The notes beneath the pieces were generated by a model, which was not told where the DNA came from, made no database searches, and saw only the letters and a list, made by a program, of their open reading frames with translations. This document shows, piece by piece, positions 686-19,593 of a DNA stretch of 32,822 nucleotides. The position numbers and the translations under genes are program-made. Source of the DNA: Geodermatophilus sp. DF01-2 (GTDB taxonomy: Bacteria > Actinomycetota > Actinomycetes > Mycobacteriales > Geodermatophilaceae); contig NZ_SPQN01000051.1 in NCBI RefSeq assembly GCF_004571065.1, forward strand, positions 1-32,822, given 5' to 3'. Position 1 is the stretch's first letter. Each line of letters opens with the position of its first letter.

Positions 686-1255
686 TCAGCGTTCGGGTCG
701 GGACTTCCGTCGCGATCGCTCGACGATCTTGCGGGCTCCCGACGCGTTCATCCTCCAGCGAGCGGCTTCCACGCTGATCTGGTGCTTGGCGCTGACCATC
801 TCGTCGGTGGCGTCTCGCCACGCGAGCCGCAGCGCGGCCTCACGAGGGATCATCAACTCGCCGGACAGGAAGGCCGCCTCCTCCTCGAGGTCGCGGTTGG
901 TGAGCCGGCAGCCGGTGTCTCCGACGAGCCGCGTCGTGAAGGGATGCTCCAGAAGGACGTGCGCGAGCTCGTGACACAGCGTCGATTTCCGGCGAACCGG
1001 GGAATGTTCGTCGTTCTCGAGAATGACGACTCCATCGCCCAGCGGAATGAGCGCGCCGGAGAAGGCGTCCGGGCGGTCGACGAGGAAGTGCCGCAGTGCC
1101 GCCTGATCGCAGTCCGTATCGCTGAGCCGATAGACGTCGATGCCGTATTCGTCCGCTATGAGTAGCGGATCGAGCACCGCATGCGGAGTCAATCCCACCT
1201 CCGCTCGGACTTCGATTGCCAGCGCGCGTGCTGTGCTGCCGAAACCCCGTTTCAC
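686..1255 (-). CDS. ImmA/IrrE-family metallo-endopeptidase
   Basis: About 189 residues from a GTG start whose first four bases (GTGA) overlap the stop of the upstream XRE gene, so the two are translationally coupled. The zinc signature HELAHVLLEH is central, preceded by VILENDEHSPVRRKSTLCHELAH, the usual layout of the ImmA/IrrE (DUF955) family. The downstream EEEAAFLSGELMIPREA is the conserved helix carrying the third zinc ligand. Known members cleave a partner XRE-type repressor (ImmR in ICEBs1, DdrO in Deinococcus), releasing repression after stress or a signal. A longer open frame to 1555 exists but its extra N-terminus overlaps the XRE gene and reads as low-complexity arginine-rich shadow, so the GTG at 1255 is preferred. 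Cleavage of the adjacent XRE protein is inference from this family pairing. Confidence 0.85.
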   Translation of the reverse strand: MKRGFGSTARALAIEVRAEVGLTPHAVLDPLLIADEYGIDVYRLSDTDCDQAALRHFLVDRPDAFSGALIPLGDGVVILENDEHSPVRRKSTLCHELAHVLLEHPFTTRLVGDTGCRLTNRDLEEEAAFLSGELMIPREAALRLAWRDATDEMVSAKHQISVEAARWRMNASGARKIVERSRRKSRPER

Positions 1256-1629
1256 GGGAGTCGCGATCGCTCCGCTTGGACTCGTCGGACGGTCGCGCCG
1301 ATGACTTGCTCGAGGTAGTTCAGATCCAATTGGTCGAGATCTGTCCGGGCCCGCAGGAGCGGCGCAAGCTCGGCCATGAGATCGGGTTGCCGCCCCTCTG
1401 GAACAGTAGTGTCGCCGTGCGTGGCGAAATCCTCGGCCTTCATTCCCAGCCAGCGAACCAGAGTCATGAATCCCTCGGCATCGGGCTTGTATCCGTTTCC
1501 CAGCCGCGACAGCAGGGACGGGCTGACGCCGGCGTCTTTCGCCAATCCCCGCCACGACAGATTCCGCTCAGTTCGAGCTCCGTCCAAGGCCGCATACAGG
1601 CGTCGGACGTCGATCTGTGTCTTTGCCAC
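1252..1629 (-). CDS. XRE-family transcriptional regulator (ImmR-like)
   Basis: A 125-residue protein with an N-terminal helix-turn-helix of XRE/Cro type at about residues 12-65: LSWRGLAKDAGVSPSLLSRLGNGYKPDAEGF has the typical pattern for helices 2-4. The C-terminal half is helical (LAPLLRARTDLDQLDLNYLEQVIGA) and may dimerise or contact the protease. It starts with GTG at 1629, with AGGAG about six bases upstream, so unlike many backbone genes here it has a leader. It overlaps the ImmA-like gene by four bases. It is transcribed away from the ubiquitin-like operon, and the region between them holds a perfect inverted repeat (1718-1743), a plausible operator. It probably autoregulates and may repress the rightward genes; that is inference. 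Confidence 0.85.
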   Translation of the reverse strand: MAKTQIDVRRLYAALDGARTERNLSWRGLAKDAGVSPSLLSRLGNGYKPDAEGFMTLVRWLGMKAEDFATHGDTTVPEGRQPDLMAELAPLLRARTDLDQLDLNYLEQVIGATVRRVQAERSRLP

Positions 1630-2287: not shown

Positions 2288-2560
2288 ATGCCCGGCAAGT
2301 CCGATGACAACTTCTTCGACCTGGCCGTCAAGTCCACGTCTGGGGTCTTCACCGACCGCTTCAACAGGAACAACAAGGCGAAGAAGGTGTTCGACGCCGC
2401 CGTCTCCTACTTCGGGCTGGGCAGCGCCGGAGCCGTGACCTACTACCTGCGCCGCGAGGCGGACGGGCGAACGCTCGACCTGAACGAACAGCTCGACGAT
2501 CTCGGCCTGGTGGACGGCGACGTCCTGTTGCTGCAGACCAGCCAGGCGCAGGACGGCTGA
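2288..2560 (+). CDS. ubiquitin-like beta-grasp protein
   Basis: A 90-residue protein starting at ATG 2288 with AGGAG six bases upstream. After a short N-terminal tail the sequence follows the ubiquitin pattern: a first strand hairpin (FDLAVKSTSGVFTDRFNRNN), a helix (KAKKVFDAAVSYF), then a strand (TYYLRRE), and ADGRTLDLNEQLDDLGLVDGDVLLLQ, closely resembling the [26 protein letters not shown] region of ubiquitin. It ends QAQDG, so the C-terminus is Asp-Gly rather than Gly-Gly, with no extension for a peptidase to remove. It heads an operon with a CEHH protein, a JAMM peptidase and an E1-like enzyme, one base before the next gene. It is probably the modifier or sulfur-carrier protein that the E1 adenylates. 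It belongs among the prokaryotic ubiquitin-like families (Prok_Ub or related); the exact family is uncertain. Confidence 0.8.
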   Translation: MPGKSDDNFFDLAVKSTSGVFTDRFNRNNKAKKVFDAAVSYFGLGSAGAVTYYLRREADGRTLDLNEQLDDLGLVDGDVLLLQTSQAQDG

Positions 2561-2561
2561 G

Positions 2562-3113
2562 ATGCACCCCGCCGATGTCGCGCAGCACGTCGCCGATTCG
2601 GTCGACGTGCTGCGCGACCGGCTACGGGAAACTCCCGGACTTGCCACCGCAGACCCCGTTCTCGAGGGAGCCACGGACCTGTACGTCGCCTTCGACAAAC
2701 TGGACCGGGAACTGGTGTCACAAGCCGTCGGCACCTCTCTGGTCCTTCCCGGTGGCCAGCCCATCTCCATGATCTATCAGGTTCCTTTGCTCGGCGCTCC
2801 GCGACTGCGATCGCTCCTTCTGCACATGCAGCTCGACGACTTCGACGGCCGGCCGCCGACCGCCGAGCTGCTCCTCCCCGACCGCACTCCCCTGCCGCCG
2901 GATCAGTGGCCGAAGTCGATCGGCGGTCAGGGCATCGTCCCCAACCATCGGGACTTCGGCCGGCCGTTCTTCTGCCGTCGGGGACTGCGCGAGTACCACA
3001 CCCACCCCGAGCACGAGGACGACCCCTGGGAGGCGCACCGCGAACACCTGCGGCTCGACGCGCTCGTCCTCGAACTGCTCGACGGGCTCCGCAACAAGTG
3101 GATCGGCCGGTGA
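2562..3113 (+). CDS. Metal_CEHH-type protein of a ubiquitin-like system
   Basis: A 183-residue protein starting one base after the Ubl stop. The C-terminal half holds FFCRRGLREYHTHPEHEDDPW, giving Cys138, Glu144, His146 and His148: the C-E-H-H pattern for which the Pfam family Metal_CEHH was named, as I recall it, in prokaryotic gene neighbourhoods with E1, JAB and ubiquitin-like genes. The N-terminal part is helical (DVAQHVADSVDVLRDRLRE), followed by strand-rich sequence (SLVLPGGQPISMIYQVPLL, RSLLLHMQLDDF, AELLLPD) that could form an RWD/UBC-like meander. It occupies the position where an E2 gene sits in Bil-type operons, and Cys138 may be a thioester or metal residue. The typical E2 HPN motif is not seen. 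Coding is secure; the activity is unknown. Confidence 0.75.
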   Translation: MHPADVAQHVADSVDVLRDRLRETPGLATADPVLEGATDLYVAFDKLDRELVSQAVGTSLVLPGGQPISMIYQVPLLGAPRLRSLLLHMQLDDFDGRPPTAELLLPDRTPLPPDQWPKSIGGQGIVPNHRDFGRPFFCRRGLREYHTHPEHEDDPWEAHREHLRLDALVLELLDGLRNKWIGR

Positions 3114-3601
3114 TGAGCCGCGTGCCGCCGACGCTGACCAATTACCGGGTACCTCGTGCCGTGCTGGACGACACCGGTGCGCTTCTTCGTGAACGCGGCC
3201 TGCTCGGCTTCGAGGCGGTCGTGCTGTGGATCGGCCGCGTCGACAGTCCGACCGAGGCCACCGTGCTGGCCGCCGTCCGCCCCGGCCAGGTCGCCTACCG
3301 CAGCGACGACGGGTGCGCGGTCGAGGTGCCGCCCGACGCACTCAGCGAGATCATCAGCCTGCTGCCGGCGGAGACGTTCGTCCTCGCCCGGGTCCACACG
3401 CATCCCGGGGCGGCCTACCACTCCCCGGTGGATGACGCCAACATGCTGATCGCCCACGAGGGGGCGATCAGCATCGTCGTGCCCGACTTCGCGCGAGACC
3501 CGGTCGAGCTGACCCGCTGCTCGGTCAACGAACTGCGCCACAGCACCGGCTGGCGCGAGCTTCCGCCCGACGACGTCGACGCTGCCTTCGAGGTGTCATG
3601 A
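3113..3601 (+). CDS. JAMM/JAB (MPN) metalloprotease
   Basis: A 162-residue protein. ATG 3113 shares one base with the stop of the CEHH gene (TGATG), so translation is coupled. All JAMM elements are visible: Glu34 in GFEAVVLWIG, then VHTHPGAAYHSPVDDAN giving His95, His97, Ser104 and Asp107. This is the complete zinc site of active JAMM peptidases such as Rpn11, AMSH and prokaryotic Prok-JAB, so it is predicted to cleave isopeptide or C-terminal peptide bonds of the ubiquitin-like protein. There is no signal peptide; it acts in the cytoplasm. Because the Ubl ends in DG without a tail, removal from conjugates seems more likely than maturation, unless processing occurs at an internal site. It overlaps the E1 gene by four bases (ATGA). 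Confidence 0.9.
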   Translation: MSRVPPTLTNYRVPRAVLDDTGALLRERGLLGFEAVVLWIGRVDSPTEATVLAAVRPGQVAYRSDDGCAVEVPPDALSEIISLLPAETFVLARVHTHPGAAYHSPVDDANMLIAHEGAISIVVPDFARDPVELTRCSVNELRHSTGWRELPPDDVDAAFEVS

Positions 3602-5217
3602 GCCCCCCGCCGACTGCACCGCCCACCCCGACGACCGAGCCAGCCGCCGACCGACGGCTCCGCGTGGTCTCCGGGTCGACCGCCGACGGCGACGCGGTGC
3701 TCGCGCTGCTGGACGGAACACCCATCCGGGTCGTCCTCCCGACGGCACCAGCATGGCGTCACCAGGTTCTCGCTCTGGCACTGGTGGACCTGCTGGGACG
3801 CCTCTTCCCGCTGATTACGATCGACTGCGACAGCGCCGCGTCGGCGCATCCCCTCTTGCCGCCCGGGCCCCCTCTGCTACGCCCGCGCCTGGAGGAGGCC
3901 GCCGGGCACGGCGCGCTCGGGCGGACCCGGCCGCCGGGCGCGCCCCCGATCACCATCATCGTCGGCGACGCGGTCGCCGACGGCCCGATCGTCGGCCCGG
4001 TCGTCCACGTCGACGGCGCAGGCTGGCAGTCCTACAACGGAACGACTCCGCCACGGTGGCCGGACCGCGACTGGCCGATGGTGCCGGTCGGCCCGCTGGC
4101 CGCCGCGTGCCGCGCCGCGGCTCAGGCGACCGCTGCCGCGCTGCACCCGGTGTCCGGGGCTCAGGTTCCGCCGGCCAGTGCCTACGCCAGCGCCCTGACC
4201 CACACCGCGTCGCCGGACCCGATCGACGACGGGCACGCCGGATCAGCCGGCGCGTGGCAGAACCCGGCCATCTCCGCGGTGATGGCCGGCGCCGGCTCGA
4301 TCGGGGGCGCGGCGGCCTATGCGTTGGCCATGACGCCGTCGCTGGCCGGAACGCTCACGGTGACCGACCCCCAGCAGTTGGAGGACAAGAACCTGGACCG
4401 GGCGCTGCTGGCGACCGCCCAGACCACGGCGCAGCGGCTCTGGAAGGTCGACGCCGTCCAGCGCGCACTCGACCACCACGAGGCGCTGCGGGTCGACACC
4501 TACCGGGGGACGCTGACGGACTGGGTCGCCAGTCACCCCGAGCCGTTTCCGCTGCCGCTCGTGCTGACCGCGGTGGACAGCCGTCAGGCCCGCACCGCCG
4601 TGCAGGACTGCCTGCCGCTGGACGTTGTCAACGCAGCCTGCCATCCGGACGAGATCACCGTCTCCGGCCACCGCACCGGGACCGGCCCCTGTCTCTGCTG
4701 CCTGCACATGGAGCAGGTGATGGACACCACCACCACCCGCGCGCGGCTGCTGGAACGGGCAACCGGCCTGAACGGACGCATGATTCTGCACTACCTGACC
4801 GCCGACATCCCCCTGGAAGCGGACGTGCTGCGGCAGATCGAACGGCACCGGGGCCTGCCGCCCGAGTCACTGAGCCAGTACGAGAACGCGACACTGGAGG
4901 ACCTGCGCGCCGGCGAACTGCTCTACGGAGCCACCGCTGTGGGAACCCCGACGGGCACGGTGGCCGTCGCCGCCCCGTACGTCACGGCCCTGGCCGGGGT
5001 CCTGCTGGCGGCAGAGGCGCTCAAGTCCGCGACGCCGGCGCTCGCCGGGTACCGCCTGGGGCCGGACGGCGGCCACATCAAGTACGAGGAGCGGGTGCAG
5101 CGCGGTCCCCTGCAGGCTCTGCTGACCAGTCCTCCCCGCTGGGCCGGCAGCGAATGCCTCTGCCAGTCGTCCCGCCGCCAGCGTCTGCTGACGACGCGGT
5201 ACGCAACATTTGGGTGA
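3598..5217 (+). CDS. E1-like (ThiF/MoeB-type) adenylyltransferase
   Basis: A 539-residue protein beginning at ATG 3598 inside the JAMM stop. The ThiF core starts near residue 225: the nucleotide loop GAGSIGG (231-237), Asp257 in VTDPQQ, Asn265 and Arg268 in EDKNLDR, Lys283 and Asp327 in TAVDSRQ match the ATP/Mg contacts of the E1 superfamily. Cysteines C-x-C-C at 365-368 and another C-L-C near the C-terminus could bind zinc, as the paired CxxC motifs do in ThiF and MoeB. Cys348 (NAACHPDE) is a candidate for thioester transfer. The first 220 residues are a separate, unassigned strand-rich segment, perhaps an E1-N or pseudo-adenylation part. It should adenylate the Ubl C-terminus. The remaining uncertainty is whether it forms a thioester or transfers sulfur. 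Confidence 0.9.
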   Translation: MSPPPTAPPTPTTEPAADRRLRVVSGSTADGDAVLALLDGTPIRVVLPTAPAWRHQVLALALVDLLGRLFPLITIDCDSAASAHPLLPPGPPLLRPRLEEAAGHGALGRTRPPGAPPITIIVGDAVADGPIVGPVVHVDGAGWQSYNGTTPPRWPDRDWPMVPVGPLAAACRAAAQATAAALHPVSGAQVPPASAYASALTHTASPDPIDDGHAGSAGAWQNPAISAVMAGAGSIGGAAAYALAMTPSLAGTLTVTDPQQLEDKNLDRALLATAQTTAQRLWKVDAVQRALDHHEALRVDTYRGTLTDWVASHPEPFPLPLVLTAVDSRQARTAVQDCLPLDVVNAACHPDEITVSGHRTGTGPCLCCLHMEQVMDTTTTRARLLERATGLNGRMILHYLTADIPLEADVLRQIERHRGLPPESLSQYENATLEDLRAGELLYGATAVGTPTGTVAVAAPYVTALAGVLLAAEALKSATPALAGYRLGPDGGHIKYEERVQRGPLQALLTSPPRWAGSECLCQSSRRQRLLTTRYATFG

Positions 5218-5259
5218 GATCCGACAGTCCTGCGGTCTGCCGGCGACGTGGCCCATCGG

Positions 5260-5265
5260 TATCTT
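5260..5265 (+). promoter_or_regulatory. candidate leaderless -10 box for the PRTase
   Basis: TATCTT fits the actinobacterial TAnnnT -10 consensus and lies exactly six bases before the GTG at 5272, the spacing of leaderless transcripts. No Shine-Dalgarno sequence precedes either that GTG or the in-frame GTG at 5248. No strong -35 is visible. This supports the start at 5272 and suggests the PRTase can be expressed separately from the Ubl operon. Confidence 0.45.
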
Positions 5266-5271
5266 CACGCC

Positions 5272-5892
5272 GTGTCCGACACTTCGGTTGCCGAGCTCAC
5301 CTTCTGCCCGCTCGCCGGCGACGCCGCGTCGCTGGCCCGGCTGCTCTCCGTCGAGGGGGCTTTGCGGCAGGGGCATTTCCGTCTGCTGTCCGGCCGGCAC
5401 ACGGACAAGTTTCTGGCGTTCAGCGCGATCGCCGCGGAGACAGCCGCGCTCGATCAGATCGCCTCGTGGCTCCGCCCGGCGGTCGAAGCCTGGGCCCCGG
5501 ACAGTGTGCTCGCCCCGACCACGGCGGGGGTGGGGCTGGCCGCCACGCTGGCCCGCATGATGTCCCTCCCCCTGCAGCTGGCCGCCGCGGGCCCGGAAGG
5601 GCGCCCGAGCGTGCTGGTCGGTACGCCGGCTCCCTTGGCAGGTCGCGTGCTGCTGGTCAACGACGTGACCACGACGGGAACCGCTCTCGGTGCCCTGGCA
5701 GGCCTGGCGGAGACCAGCGGGGGTGTCGTCGCCGGAGCGGCCTGGTTCGCCAGCCGTCAGATCGGTGGAGAGCTGTCGCTGCCGTTCCCGACCGCGCACG
5801 TAGCGGACGTCGACCTGCCGTCCTGGCCCGAGCAGGAGTGCGGCCTGTGCAGCACGGATCCTGCCCCGGAGAACGCCCGAGACCTGAACTAG
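5272..5892 (+). CDS. orotate-phosphoribosyltransferase-like PRTase
   Basis: A 206-residue type I phosphoribosyltransferase. GHFRLLSGRHTDKFLAFS near residues 34-51 resembles the N-terminal signature of orotate phosphoribosyltransferases (GHFxLxSGxHSxxY). VLLVNDVTTTGTALGAL (about 127-142) is the PRPP-binding motif, with the second acidic residue replaced by Asn (VND instead of VDD/VED). A C-terminal CGLC (190-193) is not usual for OPRTs and could bind metal. The normal pyrE gene sits with pyrimidine genes; this copy follows the E1 by 54 bases in a ubiquitin-like locus, so it is probably a specialised enzyme, possibly nucleotide or base modifying. GTG 5272 is chosen because of the candidate -10 box six bases upstream; GTG 5248 would add eight residues. 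Confidence 0.8.
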   Translation: MSDTSVAELTFCPLAGDAASLARLLSVEGALRQGHFRLLSGRHTDKFLAFSAIAAETAALDQIASWLRPAVEAWAPDSVLAPTTAGVGLAATLARMMSLPLQLAAAGPEGRPSVLVGTPAPLAGRVLLVNDVTTTGTALGALAGLAETSGGVVAGAAWFASRQIGGELSLPFPTAHVADVDLPSWPEQECGLCSTDPAPENARDLN

Positions 5893-6092: not shown

Positions 6093-6515
6093 TCAGCCGC
6101 CGCGCAGCGGGAAGAACTGGGTCTTCAGGTCCAGGGTGCCCCAGTGCGTGTCGCCGCCGGTCACGGGAAGCCCGAGCCGTTCGGCGACGGCGATGCAGAT
6201 GCCATCGCCCAGGGACAGGCTTCGGTCGTCCGCCGTGCTGCGCGCCGCTCGGGAGGCGGCGACCAGCTCCGCTGCGCGGACCGAGTCGTCCTCGGTCACC
6301 GGCTCCACTTCCAGGTCGGTGCTCAGGAGCTCAGCGAAAAGGGTTTGGGGGCTGTTGCGGTAGCCGCGCTCTGGCGCGCGATACAGCACCTCGGTCATGT
6401 TGGCTGCCGTGATGACCGCGTACGGCAAGATCTGAGCGACCACGGCAGCGGCCCGCTCGCGCAGCACGAAGGCGAGTACCGCCGAGGCGTCGACGACTAC
6501 GCGACGACCGGTCAC
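6093..6515 (-). CDS. PIN-domain toxin, VapC type
   Basis: A 140-residue PIN-domain protein. VVVDASAVLAFVLRE supplies the first catalytic aspartate, NMTEVLYRA the conserved glutamate, and SLGDGICIAVAERLGLPVTGGD the later aspartates of the four-acid magnesium site, so the nuclease looks intact. VapC toxins are ribonucleases that cut tRNA or rRNA when free of antitoxin. It starts with GTG at 6515, sharing GTGA with the stop of the upstream antitoxin gene, the classical toxin-antitoxin arrangement. It lies just inside the predicted island boundary at 7204, where such a module can stabilise the element. It converges with the PRTase gene. Confidence 0.85.
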   Translation of the reverse strand: MTGRRVVVDASAVLAFVLRERAAAVVAQILPYAVITAANMTEVLYRAPERGYRNSPQTLFAELLSTDLEVEPVTEDDSVRAAELVAASRAARSTADDRSLSLGDGICIAVAERLGLPVTGGDTHWGTLDLKTQFFPLRGG

Positions 6516-6865
6516 GCGCCGGTCAGGCCGAGGGCGGCGAGCAGGCGGCGACCGTCCTCATCGGCCTGCTCGTCACTGTCGGCGCGGGCCGCGGCGTTGC
6601 GATCGGCGACCCGAACGTCCTCATCCCGCATCGCCCGGACGTCTGCACTGGCGTCGTACCCGGAGTCGGTGGGGTCAAGATCAGCCCAGATGCGCTGCGA
6701 GGCGGCGGCCACGGCCGCTTCCGGCGTCGCAATGACGAACCGGCCCGGCGACTCCGCGTAAGCCAGCAGCCGGGTCGGGTTCTCGATGCCCGCCGCTTCC
6801 AGCAGCACAGAAGGCAGCGCGACTCGACGCTTGGCGTCCATCCGTAGCTCGAGCAGTCGGCTCAT
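6512..6865 (-). CDS. antitoxin of the PIN toxin, AbrB/VapB-like
   Basis: A 117-residue protein from ATG 6865. The N-terminus MSRLLELRMDAKRRVALPS has the swapped-hairpin AbrB/SpoVT look (beta-strand, DxKRRVxLP), followed by an acidic, helical C-terminal half (ADLDPTDSGYDASADVRAMRDED) of the kind that wraps a toxin. It overlaps the VapC start by four bases. GGAAGG lies upstream within normal distance, and a 7-bp inverted repeat at 6886-6910 is a probable autoregulatory site. The open frame extends to 7111 but the extra N-terminus does not resemble the family. It is longer than minimal AbrB-type antitoxins (about 80 residues), so the exact family is moderately certain. Confidence 0.75.
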   Translation of the reverse strand: MSRLLELRMDAKRRVALPSVLLEAAGIENPTRLLAYAESPGRFVIATPEAAVAAASQRIWADLDPTDSGYDASADVRAMRDEDVRVADRNAAARADSDEQADEDGRRLLAALGLTGA

Positions 6866-6885
6866 CGTTCCGTCCCTTCCTGCAG

Positions 6886-6910
6886 TCCCACCGAGACTAC
6901 TCTGGTGGGA
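6886..6910. promoter_or_regulatory. inverted repeat upstream of the vapBC-like pair
   Basis: TCCCACC at 6886-6892 and GGTGGGA at 6904-6910 form a perfect 7-bp inverted repeat with an 11-base centre, 21 bases upstream of the antitoxin start. VapB-type antitoxins bind such palindromes to repress their own operon. Assignment is by position only. Confidence 0.45.
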
Positions 6911-6962
6911 TCGGCACGTACAACGCCCACCTTGAGCGTTTCTTCCCACCGCAGGCCCAGCG

Positions 6963-7130
6963 ATGACGTCGACGCGGTCAGGCCCGCCTGCCATCCTCGA
7001 CCGCATGGCGGAGGCCGACGGCGAGCGGTTCCGCAACGTGCTCGACAGTTCCTGGACCGCCCACCTCAGCGGCCGCCTGCCGACTTCCAAGGCAGATGAA
7101 AGGCACGGCATCCGCCTAACTCGGCGCTGA
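6963..7130 (+). CDS. 55-residue hypothetical ORF, possibly a gene remnant
   Basis: ATG 6963 opens a 55-codon frame including ILDRMAEADGERFRNVLDSS and ending GIRLTRR. Composition is protein-like and acidic-amphipathic in the middle, but there is no clear Shine-Dalgarno sequence and I recognise no family. It stands alone between the toxin-antitoxin promoter and the tRNA fragment at the island end. It may be a small cargo gene or the debris of a longer gene. Low confidence that it is translated. Confidence 0.3.
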   Translation: MTSTRSGPPAILDRMAEADGERFRNVLDSSWTAHLSGRLPTSKADERHGIRLTRR

Positions 7131-7157: not shown

Positions 7158-7204
7158 AGCCTTCCAAGCTGGCCATGCGGGTTCGATTCCCGTCACCCGC
7201 TCCA
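7158..7204 (+). other. tRNA-Gly(UCC) 3' fragment, probable att site of a genomic island
   Basis: The stretch contains the anticodon loop CTTCCAA (anticodon TCC), the 3' anticodon arm GCTGG, the T-arm GGGTTCGATTCCCG, the acceptor strand CACCCGC and an encoded TCCA end: the 3' half of a tRNA-Gly gene. The 5' half is absent: upstream sequence gives no D-arm or matching acceptor strand, and the 5' anticodon arm (CAAGC) no longer pairs fully. Tyrosine integrases commonly insert elements in tRNA 3' halves and leave such a copy at the distal end. Because the fragment reads rightward, the element should lie to its left, with the complete tRNA gene upstream of this window. Identity as a tRNA fragment is strong; the island reading is inference. 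Confidence 0.8.
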
Positions 7205-7400
7205 CGCATAACCGCAGGTCAACCGCCCTGTCAGGCCTACTGGAGAAGGTCTGAAGGACCGTCTGAGAGGCCCGTTACAGGCCTCTGGAGACCCCTGTGT
7301 TCCGCTCCATTGGTCATGAGTTGGTCACGCCGGGCGGCGCCATACGGCCAGGTGACGGCCCCTTTGTTCCCCCGTCCTGTGACCACAACAAGTCCACGCG
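7205..7400. other. non-coding segment next to the att site with short direct repeats
   Basis: No gene is visible. TTGGTCA occurs at 7310-7316 and 7321-7327, an 11-base period, and a longer near-repeat (CAGGCCTnCTGGAGA type) occurs at 7232-7246 and 7278-7291. Short helically phased repeats near an attachment core can be integrase arm sites, but no integrase gene is present here, so this is only a suggestion. Confidence 0.35.
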
Positions 7401-7752
7401 GTGAGTTCGAGGCCGGCGCCGAGGAGTTCGAGGCCCGTGCCGAGCGGCGATCGGCCGAGCGATCTCATCCTGACCGCCACCGAGCTGGCCGCGCTCGCCG
7501 AATCACTGGCCCCGGCGCAGGCCGCCCAAGCCGCCCAGCGCCGCTTCGAGCAGCGCGGCGGCCCGCGACGCCGCGCACCCGGCGCCGGGTCCACCGGGCT
7601 GCTCTCCGACGCCGACCGGGTGCTGGTCACCGTCGTCTATCAGCGGCAAGTCTGCTCGCACCGCGCCCGCCGCCACCCGGTACGCCAGCGCGGCCGCGCT
7701 CCTCGCCTCCGTCGCGGCTCCCAGACCCGACAGCGACGCGCCGACAAGTTGA
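7401..7752 (+). pseudogene. decayed transposase N-terminal region
   Basis: Translation gives LILTATELAALAESLAPAQAAQAAQRRFEQ, then GLLSDADRVLVTVVYQRQVCS, the helix-turn-helix start found in some actinobacterial transposase-family ORFs. After 7658 the frame is lost. A short continuation in another frame (ATRYASAAALLASVAAP) reaches a stop at 7750-7752, suggesting an internal deletion. There is no catalytic DDE domain left. It lies directly beside an IS256-type fragment and is probably debris from an insertion. The exact IS family is not certain. Confidence 0.5.
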
Positions 7753-7762
7753 TTCTTTACAG

Positions 7763-8260
7763 GCCCACTTCCTGCGCAACGTCCTCGCTCGCGTGAGCAC
7801 GGGACAGGCGGAGATGGTCGCCGCCGCGATCCGCACCATCTTCGCCCAGCCCACCGCCGACACCGTCCGCAAGGCGGTCGACGACGTCGCTGACACCCTC
7901 GACCGGCAGTTCCCCACCATCGCCACGATGCTGCGCGACGCCCGCGAGGAGATCACCGCCTTCGCCGACTTCCCCGCCGCCCACTGGCGCAAGATCTGGA
8001 GCACCAACCCGCTGGAGCGGCTGAACAAGGAAGTCAAGCGGCGCACCGACGTCGTCGGCATCTTCCCCGATGACGCCTCCCTGCTCCGGCTGGCCTCCTG
8101 CGTCCTCATCGAGGCCCACGACGAGTGGCAGGTCGCCGACCGCCGCTACCTGTCCGAGGCATCCATGGCACTGCTGACCCCGCCCGAGCCCACTGCTCTG
8201 GACACTCGCCGCGCCGAGTCGGCCGAGGGGGTGGACAGGCCCGCCCTGCAGACCGCATAG
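7763..8260 (+). pseudogene. IS256-family transposase, 3' fragment
   Basis: From about 7763 the frame reads AHFLRNVLARVSTGQAEM, then VAAAIRTIFAQPTADTVR, HWRKIWSTNPLERLNKEVKR and YLSEASMALL. These are the conserved C-terminal blocks of IS256/mutator-type transposases, which contain the last catalytic Glu (in NPLERLNKEVKRR). About 165 of the usual roughly 400 residues remain; the two catalytic aspartates of the N-terminal part are missing. The upstream junction falls near 7760, against the decayed transposase fragment. The gene ends at TAG 8258-8260, about 65 bases before the IS1380 remnant. Not functional. Confidence 0.85.
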
Positions 8261-8326
8261 TCCATCCCAACACAGAGCATCACGCGGCAGTTACACCACG
8301 TCACGGGACGCGACCGCGGCCAGCTG

Positions 8327-9559
8327 TTGGTCGACCTGGCGACCGCGCAGATCCTCGGCGGTGAGGCGATCAGCGACTTTCAGGGGCTGCGGCATCTGGC
8401 CCCGGTGACTGGGCCGGTGCCTTCCACGCCGACGGTGTGGCGGGCGCTGGCCGAGGTCGGCGCGCCGCAGCTGGGCCGGATCAACGCCGCGGTCACCTCA
8501 TTTCGTCGGTGGTGGTGGGCCCTGCTGGCCGACCGCCCCGACGGCTTTCCCTGGCTGAGCGTCGCCGGTCGCGAGCTGACCGGGATCACCGTGGTCGACC
8601 TGGACGCCTCAATCGTGTTCGCCGCCTCGGAGAAGGAGAACGCCGCGGTGACCTACAAGGGCGGCATCGGGTTCTGCCCGAACCTGGCCTGCTGCGACAA
8701 CACCGACGACGTGCTGGCGATCGACCCGCGGCCGGGCAACGCCACCGCCAACTGCGCTCAGGACAACATCGCCTTGCTGGACCTGGCGGTTTCCCGGCTG
8801 CCCGGCCGCTTCCGGCACCGGCTGCTGGTCCGTCTGGACGGCGCCGGGTTCTCCCACGAGCTGATCGAACACATCGCCGCCGGCGGCGGGAAACGGGGCC
8901 GGCACTGGGAGTTCTCGGTCGGCTGGTCGTGCACCGACGTCGAGCTGGATGCCATCGCGCAGCTGCCGGCCCAGGCGTGGACGCCCGGCATCGAGCAGAA
9001 CGGCGCCGTCGCCGAGGACACCTTCGTCGCCGAGCTGACCGGCCTGCTCGACCTCGGCGGCTGGCAGGCCAAGATCCCCGGCCTGCGGGTCCTGGTTCGC
9101 AGCGAGCCCCTGCACCCTCGCTACCGCAAGCGGGCCACCGAGCGGGAGAAGCGGCTCGGCCGCCGCTTCCAGCTCATCGCCACCAACAGCCGCCTCGGCC
9201 AGCACGCCTGGTTGGACGCCCGGCACCGCTCCCACGTGCACGTCGAGGGCGACGTCAAGCAGGTCAAGGACCTCGGTCTGGCCCGCTGGCCGTCGCGGTC
9301 TTGGGCGATCAACGTCGCCAGGACCCAGATCGTGGCCCTAGCGGCGAACCTGCTCGCCTGCTTCCGCCTCCTCGCCCTGCCGCCCGGCCCGCTGCGCGAG
9401 GCGGCCCCGAAGCTGCTGCGTTACCGGCTGTTCGACCTGCCCGCCCGGCTCACCCGCGGCCAGCGCAAGCGCTGGCTGCACCTGCGCGCCGACTGGCCCT
9501 GGGCAGGTGAGCTGATCGGCGCCTGGAAGGCGGTGAAGGCACTTGCCACGCCGACTTGA
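8327..9559 (+). pseudogene. IS1380-family transposase, 5'-truncated
   Basis: About 410 codons remain of a usual 450-480. VDLATAQILGGEAISDFQGL and STPTVWRALAEVG are the N-terminal family motifs, TVVDLDASIVFAASEKENAAV holds the first catalytic aspartate, and HRSHVHVEGDVKQVKDLGL with WAINVARTQIVALAANL marks the C-terminal catalytic block. The frame is open a little upstream of the first TTG (8327), reading GRDRGQLL, but the expected N-terminus of about 60 residues and the left terminal repeat are missing. The right side continues to about 9733, where GGTGAAAAATCCAGG looks like an IS end. It is probably inactive because of the 5' loss. The C-terminal catalytic region is intact. Confidence 0.8.
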
Positions 9560-19101: not shown

Positions 19102-19593
19102 TCAGGGGCGTCCGGACCGGGTGGGCAGCCCGCCGGCCGGCCGGTGCCGGTTCTGCTCGTAGTCGGCGATCAGCCCGATCCGGCGGGCGTGCCGCTCGTC
19201 GCCGCTGAACGGGGTGGCGAGGAAGTGCAGCACCAACTCGGTGGCCTCCTCGACGCTGTGCTGGCGGGCGCCGATCGAGACGACGTTGGCGTCGTTGTGC
19301 TGGCGGGCCAGCTCGGCGGTCGACCGGTTCCACACCAGCGCGGCGCGCACCCCGGGGACCTTGTTCGCGGCCATCTGCTCGCCGTTGCCGGAGCCGCCGA
19401 TGACCACGCCGAGGCTGCCCGGCTCGGTCACCGTCCGCTCGCCGACCTCGAAGCAGAACGGCGGGTAGTCGTCCTGGGCGTCGTACTCGAACGCCCCGCA
19501 GTCGACCGGCTCGTGACCGGCGTCGGCGAGCGCCTGCTTGAGGTGCTCCTTGAACTCCAGGCCCGCGTGGTCGGTCCCGACGAAGACGCGCAT
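19102..19593 (-). CDS. rpiB: ribose-5-phosphate isomerase B
   Basis: A 163-residue protein of the RpiB/LacAB family, starting MRVFVGTDHAGLEFKEHL. The catalytic loop GGSGNGEQMAANKVPGVRAALVW is the actinobacterial form: the Cys used by E. coli RpiB is a Gly here and Glu of NGEQ is the expected base, as in the Mycobacterium enzyme. ARQHNDANVVSIGARQH holds the conserved phosphate and sugar contacts. It interconverts ribose 5-phosphate and ribulose 5-phosphate in the pentose phosphate pathway. It is divergent from the DUF429 gene with only 26 bases between start codons; CAGACT (19601-19606, read leftward) is a candidate -10 seven bases from the ATG. Confidence 0.93.
   Translation of the reverse strand: MRVFVGTDHAGLEFKEHLKQALADAGHEPVDCGAFEYDAQDDYPPFCFEVGERTVTEPGSLGVVIGGSGNGEQMAANKVPGVRAALVWNRSTAELARQHNDANVVSIGARQHSVEEATELVLHFLATPFSGDERHARRIGLIADYEQNRHRPAGGLPTRSGRP

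Follow-up and report, generated by a model that had tools for sequence, protein, structure and literature searches.

Ubiquitin-type E1 enzymes are taken to hand their modifier on via a cysteine thioester. How would a bacterial conjugation pathway work if its E1 has no cysteine at the usual place while its E2 keeps its own? The question is raised by a five-gene operon of Geodermatophilus sp. DF01-2 that resembles the Bil systems. The window analyzed here is a whole contig of 32,822 nt from a genome of 4.45 Mb in 199 contigs, and the operon lies in it as follows:

2288..2560, + strand: ubiquitin-like protein (Ubl), 90 aa, a single YukD-like domain, ends in ...QAQDG (Pfam YukD)
2562..3113, + strand: E2, BilB-like, CEHH motif, Cys138 at 2973-2975 (Pfam, 8tyz BilB, model and fold match, motif conservation)
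3113..3601, + strand: JAMM isopeptidase, BilC-like (8tyx BilC, PADLOC BilC)
3598..5217, + strand: E1 of predicted BilD fold, with Leu442-Tyr443 at 4921-4926 and no CYS-domain cysteine; Cys348 at 4639-4641 (8tyz BilD, model)
5248..5892, + strand: phosphoribosyltransferase (PRTase) derived from orotate phosphoribosyltransferase (OPRT), with a V-N-D motif for phosphoribosyl pyrophosphate (PRPP) and a CxxC...DLN tail (Pfam, NCBIfam, OPRT structures, motif counts)

We consider it probable that this is an actinobacterial Bil-type conjugation operon with an altered E1, a dedicated PRTase accessory and a likely anti-phage role. All five genes are open at these coordinates, and the first four are spaced by +1, -1 and -4, in agreement with the tight packing described in an earlier note made from the sequence alone. 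With the GTG at 5248 as start codon, the PRTase gene begins 30 bp past the end of the E1 gene; later in-frame starts are possible. Co-occurrence of the homologues in other genomes had been set as a test beforehand; the same five genes were found in the same order in Knoellia koreensis (L002) and Nocardioides oceani (L003), which indicates that the arrangement is not due to chance. Two further claims of the earlier note held: the tight Ubl/JAMM/E1 operon with Bil logic was supported, and the PRTase does accompany the operon, recurring behind the E1 in both species and on contigs shared with E1 or E2 homologues.

The order Ubl, CEHH E2, JAMM, E1 is that of BilABCD (structures 8tyz/8tz0 for E1-E2-Ubl and 8tyx for BilC), represented by the DUF2604-type operon of Sinorhizobium fredii NGR234, which consists of a DUF2604 protein, a metal-binding protein, a Mov34/MPN protein and an E1. 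The E2, JAMM and E1 are alike by sequence, and the E2 and E1 by fold too. Predicted structures were made for E2 and E1, and the fold matches are those of two VIA alignments only. The NGR234 operon type with its predicted metal-binding protein has been described earlier in a paper that contains neither "phosphoribosyl" nor "PRTase" (Iyer et al., 2006, PMC1779556).

The earlier note had read the second gene as a CEHH protein in place of a visible E2, and this has to be corrected. BilB, which is the E2, has CEHH as its active-site motif (PMC11354881); as the window protein also aligns with 8tyz BilB at this motif and its predicted model has a UBC fold with BilB as the top fold match, it is the E2 itself. 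An operon devoid of E2 is ruled out by the 8tyz BilB match and the UBC-fold model. The Pfam match to Metal_CEHH is just above threshold (PF14455, 5.6e-6, 26.4 bits against a cut-off of 25). The motif with its Cys was found in 105 of all 106 E2 homologues, the remaining one (P0128) retains the Cys too, and Cys138 is invariant in the E2 alignment A1. The JAMM protein is under the cut-off for Prok-JAB (0.0098) and is better assigned by its matches to the 8tyx BilC sequence (1.2e-21) and PADLOC BilC (9.3e-16). The Ubl barely passes the YukD cut-off (PF08817, 5.2e-6, 27.6 bits against 27) and is under that of DUF2604 (0.006); it is a predicted beta-grasp protein on the strength of the YukD profile. 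Its C-terminal tail is identical, ending in Gly, in the three copies read. Burroughs reportedly suggested conjugation by YukD-like Ubls in 2011.

The E1 matched Pfam ThiF over the cut-off (3e-10). Its model has the two-domain BilD fold; both adenylation domains, the inactive and the active one, are there, and the CYS domain is kept as helices. Residue counts refer to the 120 matches listed of the 207 found for the window E1. The ATP site, which the earlier note had called complete, is upheld: N265 and K283 occur in 120/120, D327 in 119/120 and R268 in 116/120 (Lys in the other four). The zinc cysteines are also kept as in BilD. In BilD, Cys417 makes the E1~BilA intermediate (PMC11354881, available text). 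The profile alignment places this residue on Leu442 of the window E1, adjacent to Tyr443. The aligned site is free of cysteine in all 120 homologues, and in 105 of them there is none in the whole stretch from zinc pair 365/368 to zinc pair 520/522. The other 15 carry one each at scattered positions, which fall within 430-455 in three cases (431 twice, 450 once). Tyr443 is present in 120/120, and residue 348 is Cys in 115 and Val in five. A cysteine at the Cys417 site or one column off occurs in the E1 of G1028 and in all seven Bil comparators, namely the actinobacterial G253, G102 and G013, the NGR234, Rhizobium sp. BT04 and Mesorhizobium proteins, and an E1 of Bradyrhizobium that is more distant; residue 348 is Thr in all seven comparators.

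The E1 has lost the Bil catalytic cysteine, a feature absent from the earlier note. BilB-type E2, BilC-type JAMM and BilD-fold E1 were all found; since the E1 thioester cysteine was looked for and is absent, the predicted operon is filed as a Bil-type variant, not as a plain member. It differs from BilABCD in having no Cys417 equivalent in E1, with Cys348 and Tyr443 instead, a YukD-like Ubl, an added PRTase and a clade of its own. In a tree built by a quick method from 19 of 53 variant rows and seven Bil rows, the E1 clade was separate from Bil with an SH-aLRT of 100 and long branches flagged. Four of the five Val348 E1s (P0187, P0189, P0194 and P0203) lie on a contig of the same size as that of a listed E2, and the four are rows of alignment A1, where Cys138 is invariant. 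In a minority of the pathways, both E1 cysteines thus seem to be missing although that of the E2 is retained, and direct transfer is favored in those loci. In the Cys348-bearing majority, relocation of the cysteine is conceivable, as non-canonical E1s that carry a cysteine within the adenylation domain provide a precedent (PMC11354881, available text).

The fifth protein is OPRT-like by profile (TIGR01367) and by OPRT structures (PDB 4paw, 2yzk), and its Pfam Pribosyltran match is under the cut-off (3.3e-5, 23.7 bits against 26.3). A [DE]-D pair in the PRPP motif and a KxHG catalytic loop are hallmarks of OPRT. Among the 40 PRTase homologues listed, the PRPP motif is V-N-D in 39 and [DE]-D in none, and the KxHG loop occurs in one. 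The window PRTase thus shares the type I PRTase fold by profile with PyrE, the orotate enzyme, but differs in having Asn for the first acidic PRPP residue, in the KxHG loop, absent from 39/40, and in an extra CxxC...DLN tail (CxxC near the end in 40/40, terminal Asn in 40/40, terminal Asp-Leu-Asn in 38/40). On these motifs an ordinary OPRT is unlikely.

The PRTase also travels with the conjugation genes. Eighteen of the 40 homologues, one of them in the window, lie on a contig identical in size to that of a listed E1 or E2; P0247, which lies with the whole set on a 40,103-base Nocardioides contig, raises the tally to 19. Among contigs of at least 4 kb, 17 of 27 PRTases were matched by identical size, and shifted sizes gave 0.6 on average. 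E1 and PRTase distances correlated with r 0.945 over 17 loci (15 paired by identical contig size, including the window, plus Knoellia and Nocardioides), a value reached in 0/5000 permutations. The E1 and PRTase searches were capped at 8000 scored candidates, and absence from the lists means little (the Knoellia PRTase is unlisted yet present in L002). Across 21 loci, the PRTase profile matched the window, L002 and L003 only, and none of the canonical Bil loci. We found no literature on the variant, on the cysteine loss or on a PRTase in a Ubl operon; the primary Bil and Bub papers were outside this coverage, and a prior description is possible.

A pair of putative regulators is divergent from the operon and upstream of it in the window:

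686..1555, - strand: ImmA/IrrE (Peptidase_M78) open reading frame (ORF), CapP-like regulator protease (Pfam PF06114, 5.6e-14; domain at 749-1153)
1252..1629, - strand: XRE-type helix-turn-helix (HTH) protein, CapH-like repressor by position (Pfam HTH_3, 7.9e-5, 23.1 bits against a cut-off of 23)

The peptidase ORF matched PADLOC capP at 2e-10 and RmrA models from 7.5e-7, and it overlaps the HTH gene, so that its start is provisional; the HTH gene gave no PADLOC capH match at 0.1. Such a pair adjoins the operon in all four variant loci read, that is the window, L002 (as a fusion), L003 (HTH gene assigned by eye) and L004, an actinomycete metagenome-assembled genome, where it lies downstream and the peptidase matched PADLOC capP at 8.8e-27. 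Where the variant locus is complete, in three genomes, there are 3, 3 and 2 M78 genes per genome in all, and finding one within ~1.2 kb of the operon in each has a chance of ~2e-9, a rough and post hoc figure. CapH and CapP regulate immune operons next to them, and CapW or CapH+CapP accompany 219 of 544 Bub operons (PMC13373217). The loci read here share with CapH+CapP an HTH gene and an M78 peptidase gene next to an immune-type operon, and differ from it in that the pair is downstream in L004. A fused HTH-ImmA/IrrE gene is also found next to canonical operons in L015 and L016, where a protein of 175-180 aa is its partner beside the Bil genes (L015:4818-6578, L016:9829-11471); the partner at L015:4818-5360, the only one scanned, had no Pfam match. 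On a plasmid of Rhizobium sp. BT04, a TIR-domain gene (L020:6265-6636) follows the Bil-type operon at a distance of ~0.7 kb.

The genome_contigs scan with a single E1 sequence gave no match; the E1 alignment then gave three variant loci, L002, L003 and L004, the last of which is cut off by the contig end. Protein titles of the E1 homologues add Dactylosporangium, Jatrophihabitans, Solirubrobacteraceae and Conexibacter. In genome draws that overlap one another, the E1 alignment matched 2/61 relatives, 3/396 genomes of the phylum, 2/397 of the order and 3/112 of the family. Besides the window, the matches were G013, G102, G253 and G1028, each with the canonical C-G-G cysteine. The E2 alignment found the window and a partial match, G490, among 394 genomes of the class, and PF14455 found G253 and G102 among 396 of the phylum. 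Among 112 genomes of the window's family, one carries the variant and two carry canonical E1s; both E1 types occur within one family. L017 (G013, of the window's genus) and L022 (G1028, of the window's family) combine a canonical Bil-type E1, bearing the C-G-G cysteine, with a CEHH E2. The variant was not seen in viral_contigs (E1 and E2 alignments) or plasmids (E1), with phages and ecoli_genomes outside this scope; viral or plasmid carriage was rejected, as no relative occurred in the viral_contigs or plasmids searched. The rare, scattered distribution fits an accessory, horizontally moved gene set.

Further features of the window lie behind the operon:

6093-7111, - strand: PIN-domain gene (Pfam PIN, 2.7e-10) and a preceding overlapping ORF that is weakly MraZ-like (0.094), probably a VapBC-type toxin-antitoxin pair
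7175-9559, + strand: two incomplete transposase ORFs, Mutator family and DDE group 1, broken insertion sequences (profile matches)

The Mutator ORF matches the last third of its profile only, and the DDE group 1 ORF misses the first third. ARAGORN called a 99-base tRNA-Ala (ggc) at 19250-19348 (+) amid coding ORFs, which may be a false call.

We propose that the E1 would adenylate the C terminus of the Ubl. With no cysteine at the usual place in the E1, the Ubl would take an alternative route, passing either via Cys348 in the adenylation domain or directly from the acyl-adenylate to Cys138 of the E2, and from there to target lysines. The JAMM protein would be mainly a deconjugase, as the Ubl already ends in Gly. 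The PRTase would be a dedicated accessory, either a sensor of PRPP or nucleotides or a partner or substrate of conjugation, which appears more likely than an orotate enzyme. The HTH and ImmA/IrrE pair may repress the operon until the cell suffers DNA damage or is infected, and we infer a probable role against phages, helped by this adjoining pair. More tentatively, and at somewhat less than even likelihood, the operon might represent a Bil subtype of five genes whose E1 retains the whole CYS domain without a thioester cysteine (with direct, relocated-cysteine or tyrosine-ester transfer) and whose PRPP-binding enzyme with its altered site is a working part, linking conjugation to the nucleotide state or chemically changing the Ubl or its target.

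Several observations weigh against the main proposal. Cys348 is missing from five of the 120 listed E1s (Val) and from L004 (Ala), and its nearness to the adenylate is deduced from the usual ThiF strand order: in the E1 model, strand 342-349 comes after the strand preceding Asp327, so that Cys348 should sit near the adenylate. No PRTase was matched in L004, and joint descent of the cluster can also yield the co-divergence of E1 and PRTase. The C-terminal Gly is not special, as two of the four canonical Ubls read also end in Gly; the Ubl has no PDB sequence match, and the window copy has no PADLOC BilA match (0.008 for the Knoellia copy). The PADLOC BilB score of the E2 is only 0.022. The fused regulator of Knoellia, which departs from CapH+CapP by its fusion, is best matched by RmrA (8.9e-102) and not by capP (5.5e-13).

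Bub pathways have an E1 without thioester chemistry, a serine protease and no E2 thioester. The operon is similar to Bub as a diverged bacterial Ubl pathway, of a kind often found beside CapW or CapH+CapP (PMC13373217), and may share with it an E1 without thioester chemistry, but differs in having a JAMM protein and in keeping the E2 cysteine. By analogy with the oxyester chemistry of Bub, the CYS domain of the E1 might still carry a covalent intermediate, in the form of an oxyester on Tyr443, which is invariant among the matches listed and one residue from the BilD Cys417 site, in a domain that the model keeps as helices. We regard this as very unlikely: an aryl ester would be very reactive, the E2 retains its cysteine, and Tyr443 may be structural. 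An E1 without CYS-domain cysteine also recalls adenylation-only enzymes, and a sulfur transfer or adenylation-only task like that of ThiF/ThiS or MoeB/MoaD would involve no protein conjugation; with a UBC-fold E2 that keeps its cysteine and a BilC-like JAMM in the same operon and a two-domain BilD fold in the E1, we give this idea hardly any weight.

For the PRTase, the OPRT-like profile, the absence from L004 and the canonical Bil loci read, and a co-divergence that may reflect joint descent would suit a passenger, an ordinary salvage enzyme inherited with the cluster. That is nevertheless quite unlikely, given its place directly behind E1 in L002 and L003 and on shared contigs, and given the changes to its PRPP motif, loop and tail, which would be needless in an unlinked salvage enzyme. 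Conjugation might instead serve a general stress response. Bub operons with the same kinds of regulator have not been demonstrated to protect against phages and may mediate stress responses, according to the accessible text of PMC13373217; related Bil operons are described as antiviral in titles cited there, and the rare, scattered distribution with a PIN-toxin pair and transposases nearby fits an accessory defence set. This makes a stress role somewhat unlikely, and we prefer the Bil-type conjugation operon with an anti-phage role.

An E1 clade that retains an E2 and a CYS domain without the cysteine would make it directly testable whether the E1 thioester step can be moved or done without. 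No such partner as the PRTase would have been known for Ubl pathways before, and its presence could be a sign that bacterial immunity receives metabolic input.
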